Below, piece after piece: positions 27,937 through 32,527 of a stretch of DNA of 33,327 bases; within the stretch, counting starts at the first letter, position 1; each line of letters begins with the position of its first letter. Below the pieces are notes generated by a model. The model had not been told where the DNA came from. It worked only from the letters and a program-made list of their open reading frames with translations, and searched no databases. Position numbers and translations under genes: made by a program. Where the stretch lies: the NCBI GenBank assembly GCA_016193465.1, contig JACPSE010000215.1, positions 1-33,327 on the forward strand, given 5' to 3'. The DNA comes from Deltaproteobacteria bacterium. Lineage in GTDB: Bacteria; Desulfobacterota; Binatia; UBA9968.

Positions 27937-28698
27937 TTATTTCAGATAGTGCAGCCGGACCTCGCCCCGCTTTAGCCGCTCTTCCGCCTCCTTGATCCTT
28001 TCCAACGTCCCTGTATCCTGCCAGTATCCGAAGAAGGGAAAACCGTAGAGACGGGCTCCCTGAGTCAGCATTCTAGGATAGGTGACTTTGGTGATGCCGA
28101 ACTTGGAAGAAGCTCCGGTCGATTCCATGTAATCGAAAACCTTAGGATCCAGGATTTGGACACCAGTGAACATGAATTTTGTCAGACCTACAGCCGACTC
28201 GCTTTCTGGGGCTTTGTGGCCCAGAAATCTCTGGATTCTTAGGTTCCCCGAGGTTTCAATAGGCCCGTACAAATCTGCCTGCGGATCTGGCCTCAAGACG
28301 AGAGTTGCCGTTGCCCCACGTTTTTGATGGCTCTCGATCACTTCGGCCAGGGGGAGGTCGATGATCACATCGCTGTTTATGACAATGAAGGTCTCATGCC
28401 CCAAGAAAGATCTGGCGCGCAAAAGTCCGCCGCCGGTGTCGAGCAGCTCTTTCTCTTCCGAATAGGTAATTCTTAGTCCCAGCTTTTTTCCGTCTTGCAG
28501 GAGCGCTTGGATCTTCTCTCCAAGATGATGCACATTGATGATGATCTCTGTGATCCCGTAATGTCTAAGAAGCAGGAGCGGGTATTCGATCATAGGGCGG
28601 CCGGCTACAGGGATAAGCGCCTTGGGAATCTTCTCGGTCAGGGGTCGGAGCCGTTCTCCATAACCAGCGGCAAAGACCATCGCCTTCATCTTACTCAT
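27937..28698 (-). CDS. murU: MurU-like sugar-1-phosphate nucleotidyltransferase
   Basis: The 253-residue protein is a compact nucleotidyltransferase: FAAGYGERLRPLTEKIPKAL (9-28, NTP-binding loop), PMIEYPLLLLRHYGITEIIINVHHL, LLDTGGGLLRARSFLG, VINSDVIIDL (metal Asp) and YGFPFFGYWQDTGTLERI near the end. Size, lack of an acyltransferase domain and the AmgK-like gene just upstream make MurU (MurNAc-1-phosphate uridylyltransferase) the best guess; mannose-1-phosphate guanylyltransferase or glucose-1-phosphate thymidylyltransferase remain possible. Its ATG adjoins a CTCGTGN repeat, so it has no normal Shine-Dalgarno; an ATG three codons in is an alternative. Confidence 0.83.
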   Translation of the reverse strand: MSKMKAMVFAAGYGERLRPLTEKIPKALIPVAGRPMIEYPLLLLRHYGITEIIINVHHLGEKIQALLQDGKKLGLRITYSEEKELLDTGGGLLRARSFLGHETFIVINSDVIIDLPLAEVIESHQKRGATATLVLRPDPQADLYGPIETSGNLRIQRFLGHKAPESESAVGLTKFMFTGVQILDPKVFDYMESTGASSKFGITKVTYPRMLTQGARLYGFPFFGYWQDTGTLERIKEAEERLKRGEVRLHYLK

Positions 28699-28765: not shown

Positions 28766-29842
28766 TCATCTCATTTCCTCAAAGTGCGCGGCTAGGAGCG
28801 GCACGAGCCGCTCTGTTTGAGGCAGTCTTAGCAGGTTGCGCTTGAGCCGCTTGAGAGTTGGCGGCAGGTATTTTTTGTAGCCCGGTTTTCCTTTGACCAG
28901 GTCCAGATAGTGAAAACGACCGACGACTTTGAAGTCCCTCTGCAGGGCAGAGAGGAGATAGAGCTCAAAAAATTCATCCTTGGTTACTTTCTTCTCTCCC
29001 ATCTCCCCACGCTTCTTCAGATAGTAATCCAGTAGGGAGTCCTCCATATCGGGCCGGATAACGCGATCGGTTTCACGGTCATTTAGAAGAGAGGCCAGGT
29101 CGTATTGGGGCGGCGCCAGGAGGGCATCCTGAAAGTCAATGACAGCGATCTCCTCATCTGAGACCATCAGGTTCCAGCTATGGTAGTCTCTGTGGTTGAG
29201 ACAGGGAGGTTGGCTGTTCAGCCGGCGAGAGATCTCCTCAAAACTCTGCACCAATAGCTCTTTTTCTCTCGAGCTGATTGTGCCGCCCGGCCTTTTTTCC
29301 AGGCCGTACTCAATGAAGTGGCTAAACTCCCACATGTAAAGGCGGAAATCGAAGCGCTGCTCAAAAGCGATGCAGGAGTTGTCTCTTGCTTTTGTGCCGC
29401 CGATTTGGATCAAAAGAAGCTGGTCTATCGCCTTTTCATACCGCTGGATGACCTCAGAGGCGGAAAGGTCCTGCACGGTGTCCCAGAGAGAGCTGTCCCC
29501 TAGATCCTCCAAAAGAAGAATCCCCTCTTCGACCCAATGACCATAGAGCGCAGGAATGCGCACCCCGACTCGACCGAGGAAGCGGTGCAGATTGAGGAAA
29601 GGAAGCTCCTTGGGCGGCTCTTTGAAGATGGCTAGTTCCTCGGAGGAGAGAGGCAAGGAGCTCCCCACGAGCTCCATGACGATGACCGAGCGCGGAACGC
29701 GATGACCCTCCAATAGCGCCCGGTAGTAGCGGCGAGTTGAGGCGTCGCCCGCGAGGGGGGTGATCGAGCGGAGGCGAGCGCCGCTGCCAAAAGAGGCCTG
29801 GATTTTTTCCCCTACTAGTTCTTCGAGCGTTTTTTTTACCAC
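28766..29842 (-). CDS. amgK: AmgK-like aminoglycoside-phosphotransferase-fold sugar kinase
   Basis: The protein has 358 residues from the GTG at 29842 (AGAGAG just upstream). A longer frame reaches 30103 but would overlap the divergent gene and adds non-conserved residues. The fold is that of APH kinases: SITPLAGDASTRRYYRAL (nucleotide loop), LLLEDLGDSSLWD, the catalytic CLNHRDYHSWNLMV (about 212-225) and metal-binding VIDFQDALLAPPQYDLASLL (about 232-251). The HRDxHSxNL and DFQDAxxxPxxYDL signatures are those of AmgK, which phosphorylates MurNAc/GlcNAc at the anomeric carbon. It precedes the MurU-like gene on the same strand, as in known amgK-murU salvage operons. Confidence 0.85.
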   Translation of the reverse strand: MVKKTLEELVGEKIQASFGSGARLRSITPLAGDASTRRYYRALLEGHRVPRSVIVMELVGSSLPLSSEELAIFKEPPKELPFLNLHRFLGRVGVRIPALYGHWVEEGILLLEDLGDSSLWDTVQDLSASEVIQRYEKAIDQLLLIQIGGTKARDNSCIAFEQRFDFRLYMWEFSHFIEYGLEKRPGGTISSREKELLVQSFEEISRRLNSQPPCLNHRDYHSWNLMVSDEEIAVIDFQDALLAPPQYDLASLLNDRETDRVIRPDMEDSLLDYYLKKRGEMGEKKVTKDEFFELYLLSALQRDFKVVGRFHYLDLVKGKPGYKKYLPPTLKRLKRNLLRLPQTERLVPLLAAHFEEMR

Positions 29843-29896
29843 CGTCTCTCTCAGGCTTGTGTCTCTCTTTTCTCTCCGGTATATTACCTTTTCTGT

Positions 29897-31135
29897 ATGG
29901 ATTTTCCGAGAGCCCTTATCGTCCTTTTCCTTTCTATGGCAGTTTATCTGGTTTCGCAGATCTATCTCTTCTTTCGCATCCGGCTCTGGCTGCGGCATCG
30001 CTTCCAGGATCCGAAACGGCAACGGTTGCTCTCCAGCATCGTGGCCGCTTTTCTCCTCATCATGCTCTTCCCGCTCGCCTGGCGGCTGCTCTACGGTTGG
30101 CATTTCGACCAGACATATCCGACGCTTTTCCGCGCTCTGTTTGCTGTCTTTGCCATCTGGGCTTTCGGCTCGATTGGTGTTGCTCTTATCTTTCTGGGAT
30201 ACGATCTCTTTCGCCGGCTCGTTGCCTCCTATTCCCCGCGGCCAGTGGAATCGCCCGACCTTCGGCGGCGCGACTTTCTAAAAAAAGGGCTGGGTGTCGC
30301 AGCGGCAGCTCCGTTTCTCGTCTCCGGGTACGGGGTTTTGCTGGCACGGCACCGTTTCCAAACAGAACACTTCGACCTGCCCGTCAATGATCTCTCCTCG
30401 GCCCTCTCCCAGCTCTCCATTGTTCACCTTACCGACATCCACCTGGGTCCTTTCATGCCGCAGGAGGAGGTCGCCGCTTATGTGGAGGCCGCCAATCGCC
30501 TGGAGCCGGATATCATCGCGCTTACGGGCGACTTCGTTACAAGTAGGCTGGCGGAGGCTGAACCCTGCGTTCAAGCGCTTTCAGGCCTGAAGGCGCGCTA
30601 CGGAATCTTCGCCTGCTTGGGCAATCACGATGTCTATGCCCGCGCGGATGGCGAGCTTACCCGCCTGTTGGGTCAGAGAGGGGTGCGCGTGCTGCGCAAC
30701 GATGCGGTCTCGATTCGGATCGGCAACACGACGCTCAATATTCTCGGCATTGATGATCTGAGGTGGGGGAGACCTGATCTCTTACACGCCCTCGACATCG
30801 CCAAGAGAAAGCCAGGAGAGGTGCAGATATTACTCTCGCATCGCCCGGAGATTTTCCCGCAGGCCGCCCGAAAGGGGCTCGATGTCGTTCTTTCAGGTCA
30901 TTACCACGGCGGTCAGATCAAGCTTGCCCCTGACCCGGATAGTCTCTCCATTGCCCGTCTCATTACTCCCTATGCTGAGGGGCTGTTCCATCTGTCGCGG
31001 CGGCGCTTGGAGAGCTCCGGAGAAGGGGCCAACGATGCCGTGCTCTTTGTTAGTCGCGGGATTGGGATCACTGGCTTGCCTATCCGCATCAACTGCCCGC
31101 CGCAGATCGCCCACCTCACACTGCGGCGCGCGTAG
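29897..31135 (+). CDS. Membrane-anchored metallophosphoesterase (YkuE/YaeI-like)
   Basis: The 412-residue protein has three N-terminal membrane helices (about 5-27, 46-66, 79-103), a twin-Arg-like stretch LRRRDFLKKGLGVAAAAPFLV (starting near 122) and a calcineurin-like phosphoesterase domain with all metal motifs: LTDIHLG (D180, H182), ALTGDFV, CLGNHDVY, LSHRPEIF and SGHYHGGQ. Relatives hydrolyse phosphoesters such as UDP-diacylglucosamine or act on the outer membrane face. The RR motif after the helices is common in this group and places the catalytic domain on the periplasmic side. It is transcribed divergently from the kinase gene with a 54-base gap and no Shine-Dalgarno. Confidence 0.88.
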   Translation: MDFPRALIVLFLSMAVYLVSQIYLFFRIRLWLRHRFQDPKRQRLLSSIVAAFLLIMLFPLAWRLLYGWHFDQTYPTLFRALFAVFAIWAFGSIGVALIFLGYDLFRRLVASYSPRPVESPDLRRRDFLKKGLGVAAAAPFLVSGYGVLLARHRFQTEHFDLPVNDLSSALSQLSIVHLTDIHLGPFMPQEEVAAYVEAANRLEPDIIALTGDFVTSRLAEAEPCVQALSGLKARYGIFACLGNHDVYARADGELTRLLGQRGVRVLRNDAVSIRIGNTTLNILGIDDLRWGRPDLLHALDIAKRKPGEVQILLSHRPEIFPQAARKGLDVVLSGHYHGGQIKLAPDPDSLSIARLITPYAEGLFHLSRRRLESSGEGANDAVLFVSRGIGITGLPIRINCPPQIAHLTLRRA

Positions 31136-31222: not shown

Positions 31223-31251
31223 GATGGCCGGCGCCGCCGGTCCTAAACCTC

Positions 31252-31470
31252 TCAGGTGCCGCCAAAACCTATCGTTACCTTCCCCCCTTCGACGATGACC
31301 GGGATCTGGCGCCGGTTTTTTGAGTATTCCAGCATGCGCTTGAGACCTTCCTCATCCTTAAGCACATTGATGTAGTCGAAGAGGATCTTGCGCCGGGAGT
31401 ATTCCGCACGGGCTCCCGAAGTATAGGGTCAGAGGTCTTGACCGAAGATCAGAACTTTGTCTGCTGGCAT
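31252..31470 (-). CDS. Glutaredoxin-like selenoprotein (Sec-Pro-Tyr-Thr), UGA recoded
   Basis: Reading through one in-frame TGA (31429-31431) gives a continuous 72-residue protein ending at a TGA at 31252-31254. It starts at an ATG preceded by AAGGAGAG nine bases upstream. The sequence begins KVLIFGQDL-Sec-PYTSGARA (Sec14 where glutaredoxins have the first Cys of CPxC), continues as helix, strand, helix, and ends QIPVIVEGGKVTIGFGGT, with the cis-Pro (IPVI) and GG turn of the glutaredoxin fold. The Sec-x-x-Thr motif matches the Uxx-star type of glutaredoxin-like (seleno)proteins. A CGGGAG/CTCCCG hairpin begins 10 bases after the UGA, suiting a bacterial SECIS. Sec genes (selA-D) are not in the window. 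Confidence 0.85.
31394..31431 (-). promoter_or_regulatory. UGA Sec codon with putative bacterial SECIS hairpin
   Basis: Counting the UGA as bases 1-3, CGGGAG (14-19) pairs with CTCCCG (33-38). The 13-base apical region contains a GUG that could be exposed above a short CC/GG pair at about 20-28. Position and size agree with SelB-binding hairpins of bacteria. Confidence 0.55.
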
Positions 31471-31555
31471 AGATATTTACTCTCCTTAAGCCAGCAAAGA
31501 TCAAATTGCAAGAGACTCTATGCCTATGTTACCTTCCTAATACGGAGGAGAGCCT

Positions 31556-32527
31556 GTGACCTTTAAAGTCGGTATCGCGCAGATCAATCCGAGATTGGGA
31601 GATCTCCAGTCGAACCTGGCCCTTTACGAGGAAAAGATCCGTCAGGGAGAAAAAGAAGGCGCCGATCTTTTACTTTTTCCCGAGTTGAGTCTCACCGGCT
31701 ATTTTCTCCGCGACATGGTTCCCAACGTGGCGTTAAAACTCGCCTCGCCCGAGATCGAAGGGCTGAAGAAGCTCAGTCGAAAAATCAGCTTTGTGGCCGG
31801 GTTAGTGGAAGAGAGTTCGGATTACCGTTTCTACAATGCGGCGGTTTATTTCGAAGCCGGAGAGATCCGACATGTCCATCGCAAGGTCTATCTGCCGACC
31901 TACGGCATGTTTGATGAACAGCGTTATTTTGCTCGCGGGGATCGTGTGCGGGCCTTCGACTCGAAGTTTGGCCGTATCGCCGTGCTCATCTGTGAAGATC
32001 TCTGGCATCCCTCCACCGTCTACCTGGCTGCGCTTGACGGGGCGGTCGCGATATTGTGTCCATCTGCCAGCCCGCTTCGCGGCATCACGGATCAGCAGGT
32101 CCAGGATGATAATGCCCGTTACTGGGAATTGATAAACCGCGCGTACGCCGAGACCTTCAGCCTGTTTGTCATTTATGGAAACCGGGTGGGGTTCGAAGAC
32201 GGGGTGGGTTTTTGGGGGGGCTCAGAGCTTGTAGATCCATCCGGCCAGAGGCTTGCCAAGGCAAAATATTACGATGAAGATTTTGTTGTTGGCGGTGTAG
32301 CTCTGGAATCGGTCCGTCGCAAGCGGACCATGACGCCGCTTTTGAGAGATGAGGATTTGGATCTCACTATTAACGAGCTGGTGCGCATCCGGGGACGGCC
32401 ATCGTACAAAGAAGGCAGCGGGGAAAAAAAGGCAATAGGCAATAGGCAACAGGCAACAGGAAGAAAAAAAACGAGCAAAAGGGAGAGGAAAGAAGGCGAA
32501 AGCAAGAAGGCACGCAAAACGCGCTAA
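31556..32527 (+). CDS. Carbon-nitrogen hydrolase, glutaminase subunit-like partner of NAD synthetase
   Basis: The 323-residue protein is a nitrilase-superfamily amidase with the catalytic triad in place: E43 (LLLFPELSLTGY), K110 (HRKVYLPTYGMFDE) and C146 (IAVLICEDLWHP). It closely resembles the glutaminase domain of glutamine-dependent NAD synthetase, which feeds ammonia to NadE, and the synthetase gene follows 54 bases later in the same reading frame. GGAGGAG precedes the GTG start. The last 35 or so residues (KKAIGNRQQATGRKKTSK onward) are low-complexity, very basic and partly encoded by TTGCCTN repeats. In many bacteria the two domains are fused. Confidence 0.88.
   Translation: MTFKVGIAQINPRLGDLQSNLALYEEKIRQGEKEGADLLLFPELSLTGYFLRDMVPNVALKLASPEIEGLKKLSRKISFVAGLVEESSDYRFYNAAVYFEAGEIRHVHRKVYLPTYGMFDEQRYFARGDRVRAFDSKFGRIAVLICEDLWHPSTVYLAALDGAVAILCPSASPLRGITDQQVQDDNARYWELINRAYAETFSLFVIYGNRVGFEDGVGFWGGSELVDPSGQRLAKAKYYDEDFVVGGVALESVRRKRTMTPLLRDEDLDLTINELVRIRGRPSYKEGSGEKKAIGNRQQATGRKKTSKRERKEGESKKARKTR
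32431..32460. repeat. TTGCCTN heptamer tract (reverse orientation) in the glutaminase tail
   Basis: GGCAATAGGCAATAGGCAAC and onward lie in frame near the end of the gene and encode AIGNRQQATG. An oppositely oriented tract lies at 32549-32579. Confidence 0.85.

Follow-up and report, generated by a model that had tools for sequence, protein, structure and literature searches.

A UXX-star family 1 gene with two in-frame UGA codons and a SECIS-like hairpin beyond its stop codon

Introduction

The closest described system is UXX-star selenoprotein family 1, a family of unknown function named in NCBIfam (NF041114). In the part of a 2026 review available to us, it is listed as 'Distant Grx-like protein 1' with the motif UxxT, and we take the table entry '2' to mean two selenocysteine (Sec) residues (PMC13188914). 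According to the same part of the review, Sec in such families may serve as a metal ligand or may meet unknown substrates. The portion of PMC2398784 at hand held no entry that could be tied to this family. The review also models the bacterial SECIS. Briefly, the upper stem has 4-16 bp, the loop has 3-9 nt with a G in the first two positions, the distance from the UGA is 16-37 nt and the folding energy is -7.5 kcal/mol or lower. In the sections drawn on here, bacterial SECIS elements are placed inside coding regions (PMC13188914).

Here, we analysed 33,327 nucleotides from a Deltaproteobacteria bacterium (assembly GCA_016193465.1, contig JACPSE010000215.1), hereafter the window. A first-pass annotation, made from the letters alone, had proposed an overlooked glutaredoxin-like selenoprotein of 72 residues, with a single in-frame TGA, at positions 31252-31470. 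We describe the locus as one further member of UXX-star family 1, with two in-frame UGA codons and a putative SECIS past the stop.

Results

A glutaredoxin-like gene with two in-frame UGA codons

The features of the locus are collected in Table 1. The first-pass annotation gave no strand. The plus-strand reading of 31252-31470 was discarded, since its translation yields no glutaredoxin. The gene is on the minus strand, where the ATG with a Shine-Dalgarno sequence was found as described; the start codon is the ATG at 31470 and AAGGAG (31487-31482) precedes it. A TGA is indeed present at codon 14, at the redox position of a Uxx-star glutaredoxin-like protein, in the motif U-P-Y-T. From this codon, the frame continues through IPVIVEGGKVTIGFGG, the C-terminus already recognised in the first pass, up to a second TGA at 31254-31252. 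This second in-frame TGA, at codon 73, had been mistaken for the stop codon. In the window, the gene finishes G-G-T-U-E-V-stop. Homologues likewise go on for two residues and then stop. Hence, the gene ends with the TAG at 31245-31243, not at 31252, and encodes 75 residues rather than 72. It contains two in-frame UGAs and no cysteine codons, which agrees with the earlier proposal of a thiol-independent redox protein.

Table 1. Positions of the UXX-star gene, its signals and its neighbours in the window. Family-locus counts refer to 16 loci, some of them on contigs that are cut.
Feature	Position	Strand	Basis and remarks
UXX-star family 1 double selenoprotein gene (putative)	31243..31470	minus	75 codons + TAG; translation, NF041114 107.9 bits
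Shine-Dalgarno-like AAGGAG	31482..31487	minus	11 bases upstream of ATG; read from sequence
TGA codon 14, predicted active-site Sec (U-P-Y-T)	31429..31431	minus	TGA in 22/24, Cys codon in 2/24; Cys in 4/28 of second set
TGA codon 73, predicted C-terminal Sec	31252..31254	minus	TGA in 24/24 and 28/28 sequences
TAG stop, codon 76	31243..31245	minus	stop here in 24/24 and 27/28 sequences
SECIS-like hairpin CCGGC(GGC)GCCGG	31228..31240	minus	beyond stop codon; loop at 16 nt from UGA-73
Candidate SECIS hairpin for UGA-14	31394..31418	minus	inside coding region; 8/8 designated pairs in window, otherwise weak
Amidase (carbon-nitrogen hydrolase), divergent neighbour	31556..32527	plus	Pfam, NCBIfam; beside UXX-star in 12/16 family loci
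NAD+ synthase gene	from 32582, runs off window		adjoins amidase
AmgK-like kinase	28766..30103	minus	Pfam APH, NCBIfam; below AmgK cut-off; 15/16 family loci
MurU-like gene	27937-28698		after kinase; below NCBIfam cut-off; 14/16 family loci

The stretch of 58 codons that separates the UGAs was compared with its counterpart in three congeners. The codon differences were 20 synonymous and 4 non-synonymous for G020, 19 and 8 for G019, and 17 and 10 for G021. Very probably, the product of 31243-31470 is a glutaredoxin-like protein of 75 residues in which two UGAs serve as selenocysteine codons.

The 75-residue reading matches NF041114 with 107.9 bits (cut-off 72, E 2.2e-31) across model positions 1-70 of 70. 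The score rises to this value from 104.4 bits once the two residues past codon 73 are included; the model covers both. The UxxT motif is present with TGA at U (U14-P-Y-T). So too is a C-terminal U-x-x-stop (U-E-V-stop), a feature that we take from the family name and the relatives. The broader Uxx-star subfamily model (NF041212) gives 84.2 bits, above its cut-off of 66, and the Pfam glutaredoxin model gives 33.7 bits (cut-off 22.9). Other assignments were rejected. UXX-star families 2 (NF041211) and 3 (NF047338) score 46.9 and 46.3 bits, below cut-offs of 100 and 97, respectively. The HUGP fusion model scores under its cut-off, and glutaredoxin 3 (TIGR02181) reaches 30.8 bits against a cut-off of 90. 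Nothing was found that distinguishes the window protein from UXX-star family 1. Given the full-length match above the NF041114 cut-off and the listing in the part of the review consulted (PMC13188914), the protein belongs, as a new member, to a family already known and does not found one of its own. The likeness to Uxx-star proteins noted in the first pass holds, although the family had already been named in NCBIfam and listed in that review. The gene adds one member to it.

The C-terminal UGA is steadier than the active-site UGA

Two sets of sequences were compared. The first comprised 27 loci, the window's copy included, which left 24 sequences after removal of three duplicates. The second comprised 28 of the best 30 loci, two without a match to the N-terminal expression being left out; as these are the best-scoring loci, the set is biased to typical members. 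The second set came from a wider search, in which 79 of 297 genomes drawn from the phylum matched, 74 of them above the cut-off.

At codon 14, the two cysteine codons of the first set are both TGC. Taking both sets together, Sec and Cys are exchanged here in 6/52 sequences. The Cys homologues at position 14 that the first-pass annotation proposed to look for therefore exist. In two genomes, G010 and G023, codon 14 encodes Cys and the C-terminal TGA is retained. Codon 73 is steadier, with TGA in 52/52 sequences, and a scripted check found no locus of the first set without the C-terminal UGA. Exactly two codons and then a stop follow in 51/52; the exception, in the second set, has one extra residue before the stop. 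In the first set, codon 75 encodes Val in 22 sequences and Ile in 2, its third base being free, and codon 76 is TAG in 9, TAA in 8 and TGA in 7. In the second set, the stop three codons past the C-terminal TGA is TGA in 13, TAA in 7 and TAG in 7. Conservation thus extends past both UGAs; its lack downstream of the TGA was what the first-pass annotation had thought would speak against a selenoprotein.

In 20/52 sequences, another UGA begins nine bases after the putative Sec-UGA, and this second UGA of the pair presumably acts as the stop. In two loci of one genus (L029 and L032, from G014 and G015), the frame stays open beyond this third UGA into the downstream kinase gene. Reading the third UGA as well would fuse UXX-star to the kinase. 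Frame alone would leave it open in one case out of three, and L029 and L032 are closely related to each other.

A hairpin past the stop codon has the shape and spacing of a SECIS

The window's hairpin past the stop codon has the stem, loop G and spacing (16 nt) of the published bacterial SECIS. At -7.0 kcal/mol, the bare hairpin falls just short of the published -7.5. Among the 24 sequences of the first set, 23 have the SECIS shape after UGA-73 (stem of at least 4 bp, loop G, 16-37 nt spacing) and 18 have both the shape and, for the bare hairpin, the energy. The difference from the described elements, as far as the review was consulted, is the position beyond the stop codon rather than inside the coding region (PMC13188914).

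We also used a narrower rule that considers only sequence beyond the stop codon. The first set served to shape it; the second set is drawn from other genomes. By shape, the rule is satisfied by 22/23 sequences of the first set, compared to a mean of 4.0 and a maximum of 10 in 500 dinucleotide shuffles. By energy, the figures are 18/23, 0.5 and 3. In the second set, 24/28 sequences have the shape (mean 5.0 and maximum 12 in 300 shuffles) and 18/28 the energy (mean 0.5, maximum 4). Since the rule itself requires the loop G, the shuffles are the proper control, and not this G alone.

The letters of the stem vary among sequences with pairing kept. For a fixed structure, 78.0% of cells are paired, compared to 71.4% upon shuffling (2 of 500), and covariation is 0.224, compared to 0.161 (3 of 500). 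Pairs changed on both sides (5 versus 3.9 shuffled; 117 of 500) and pair types (13 versus 12.4; 243 of 500) are unremarkable. RNAalifold predicted no pairs in the post-stop alignment, and Rfam returned no matches at gathering score in the whole window. The longest stem has a mean of 7.0, compared to 4.2 in base-composition shuffles. We do not rely on this count because another stem is picked in the window, and because the combined p treats kin as independent. The z-score of the folding energy averages -1.3 over 23 sequences and is +0.5 in the window. These values are weak because G+C-rich letters refold on shuffling; the rule of shape and position separates the hairpin better than the energy z.

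A hairpin that is G+C-rich, directly 3' of a gene and, in the window, not stabler than its own letters when shuffled (z 0.5) could also be a transcription terminator or other 3' element. We consider this unlikely. No steady T run is seen downstream of the hairpin in the copies inspected by eye. Furthermore, the G in the first two loop positions keeps a steady distance of 16-20 nt to the UGA (22/23 and 24/28 sequences), and the narrower rule applied 20-28 nt further downstream finds just 2-7/23 by shape and 0/23 by energy.

The SECIS for the second selenocysteine hence seems to be positioned beyond the stop codon. It is likely that an entire family of bacterial selenoproteins relies on a SECIS outside the coding region, has the C-terminal Sec as its invariant centre, and tells Sec-UGA from stop-UGA only by distance from one hairpin. 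If so, the UGAs that start nine bases apart would act as a natural ruler for SECIS spacing. UXX-star family 1 would then offer natural sequences on which to test the distance rule for Sec decoding in bacteria.

A candidate hairpin after UGA-14

The first-pass annotation pointed to a hairpin 10 bases past TGA-14. The pairing stretch CGGGAG...CTCCCG does start there, but its stability in the window shows no excess over shuffles (z 0.72). The bulged hairpin has an energy of -8.7 kcal/mol and shuffles fold equally well. The perfect-hairpin SECIS rule finds no match after UGA-14 in the window. For the 24 sequences of the first set, the mean z against synonymous shuffles is -0.34, and all 8 pairs form in only 9. 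The second loop base is an invariant G. In this hairpin, 79.2% of cells are paired, compared to 71.1% upon shuffling (0 of 500). Covariation is 0.162, compared to 0.103 (0 of 500), and is not specific to the register, since sliding the 3' side by -3 scores as high (0.172). Together, these data point only weakly to a SECIS for UGA-14.

Sec machinery and other TGA-containing genes

The assembly to which the window belongs spans 4.5 Mb in 238 contigs and is rated 100% complete. Even so, the four genes for which the first-pass annotation had proposed a search all fall below cut-off in it: selB (best 189.7 bits, cut-off 242.25), tRNA-Sec, the selC product (best 45.8, gathering 47), selA (best 18.7, cut-off 267.9) and selD (best 72.1, cut-off 125). 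Six of the 20 tRNA-Sec candidates, including the best one, were scanned with ARAGORN, and all six are Ser or Leu tRNAs. Relatives do have the machinery. Of the 25 genomes of the family, own included, 20 yielded selB, 22 selA and 16 tRNA-Sec. All three congeners carry selA and selB, and two carry tRNA-Sec. In G020, selA, selB, tRNA-Sec and an ORF that we read as selD lie within 5 kb. Hence, one gap could remove them all. The order of the sel genes is not fixed, given that selA is on a separate contig in G021 and that tRNA-Sec lies away from selB in several family members.

We compared a 12.7 kb contig of G020 with the window's genome. Within the operon there were only short matches, mostly to a dispersed repeat. 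The segment just past tRNA-Sec aligned with contig 197 at 80% identity over 615 columns. This match is 235 bases from the contig end, and the side expected for the sel operon bears other genes. By place, loss and an assembly gap are indistinguishable. A short element between selB and the selD-like ORF of G020 (L066:9195-9265) has more than 20 matches in the window's genome, and this dispersed repeat might break assemblies at the sel operon.

Further genes of the same assembly contain in-frame TGAs. Of 14 AhpC-TSA matches, 7 have one (contigs 192, 113, 107, 93, 80, 63 and 10). We read five of these genes and found the TGA in W-U-P-Y-C, V-U-P-T-E, G-U-Q-Q-E, G-U-I-R-E and F-U-P-N-C. In all five it occupies what we take to be the expected site of the redox Cys. 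A second glutaredoxin-like gene, with TGA in U-A-S-C, is present on contig 137 (L090:2607-2840). Its scores stay under the UXX-star and YruB cut-offs, and it lies near an ORF that we take for a putative arsenate-reductase-like protein.

Four other genomes of the family (G010, G014, G022 and G023) have UXX-star above cut-off and no selB found. Among these, tRNA-Sec is seen in G022 and G023, selA in G014 and G023, and neither in G010.

As none of selA, selB, tRNA-Sec and selD reaches its cut-off although the assembly is rated complete, the UXX-star gene could be a relic, now truncated at codon 14 after loss of Sec decoding. We regard this as quite improbable. Past codon 14, differences to G020 are mostly synonymous (20 versus 4), and half of the AhpC-TSA matches have one TGA, at the redox site in the five read. 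The G020 genes are close enough for one gap to delete selA, selB and tRNA-Sec. In addition, three of the four other UXX-star genomes without selB still show selA or tRNA-Sec. Most likely, the organism decodes Sec and its sel genes are missing from the assembly rather than lost; an assembly gap is favoured by the selA and selB genes of the congeners and by the further TGA-at-redox-site genes. The first-pass annotation had held that absence of selB or selC would count against a selenoprotein. On its face this is what the assembly gives, yet we think that it is outweighed by the sel genes of congeners, the other genes with TGA at a redox site and the conservation past both UGAs. A genome rated 100% complete may thus lack every sel gene and still hold many putative selenoprotein genes, which makes a missing selB poor grounds for rejecting a selenoprotein.

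A predicted glutaredoxin fold with a putative selenocysteine tail

A structure model was built from ten aligned sequences. The best of five models has a mean pLDDT of 85.1 and a pTM of 0.69, and is the only one with a mean pLDDT above 80 (the other four range from 75.0 to 58.4). It matches glutaredoxins and NrdH-like proteins. The best Foldseek E is 1.1e-4 (3ic4), and the best VIA-align Z is 10.4, with an rmsd of 1.6 over 66 residues (3zij_B; several rows tied). Consistent with this, a sequence profile search also retrieves glutaredoxins. The window protein shares the fold, the position of the redox residue and the Pfam glutaredoxin match with glutaredoxin 3 and NrdH-like proteins. In contrast to these, it has no second Cys in the motif, and it has a U-E-V tail in place of the C-terminal helix. 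Since these matches stop at residue 71, the U73 tail is without a template.

The end of the fold matches at residue 71, and the normal use of UGA as a stop codon, would suit a 72-residue protein with one Sec at codon 14, but we find this reading very hard to credit, because two more codons and then a stop follow in 51/52 sequences, codon 75 keeps Val or Ile with a free third base while TAG, TAA and TGA are all used at codon 76, NF041114 spans the two extra residues with a gain in score, and a SECIS-shaped hairpin is spaced for codon 73.

We think it highly likely that the gene product is a double selenoprotein of 75 residues belonging to UXX-star family 1, with UGA-73 decoded via the SECIS past the stop codon and UGA-14 probably via the internal hairpin. 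In the proposed mechanism, SelB and tRNA-Sec would decode UGA-73 under the guidance of the post-stop hairpin, and a hairpin within the coding region would probably serve UGA-14. The glutaredoxin fold would bear the Sec of U14-P-Y-T at the start of its first helix, and the second Sec would sit two residues before the C-terminus (U73-E-V). What the data show directly is the sequence, the family match, the conservation, and how the post-stop hairpin is shaped and spaced; Sec insertion at the two UGAs of this organism, like all of the chemistry, is inferred. To our mind, the likeliest role is that of a small protein for redox chemistry or metal(loid) binding, with the C-terminal Sec as its indispensable group. 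U14, replaceable by Cys, could be the partner of this Sec in a diselenide or selenenylsulfide pair, or the two could be ligands. Judging by conservation, the two selenols may act as a pair, or U73 may be the essential group.

Gene neighbourhood

The neighbours that recur in loci of the family are given in Table 1; the gene is flanked there by the divergent amidase/NAD+ synthase pair on one side and by the AmgK- and MurU-like genes on the other. In other lineages (L022-L027), 0/6 loci match any of nine window proteins. Hence, we draw no function from the neighbourhood. The start of the kinase ORF (28766-30103) overlaps a phosphoesterase on the opposite strand (29897-31135). Most relatives align with it only from about residue 75-118. 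Given this and the overlap, the kinase probably starts later than its first ATG.
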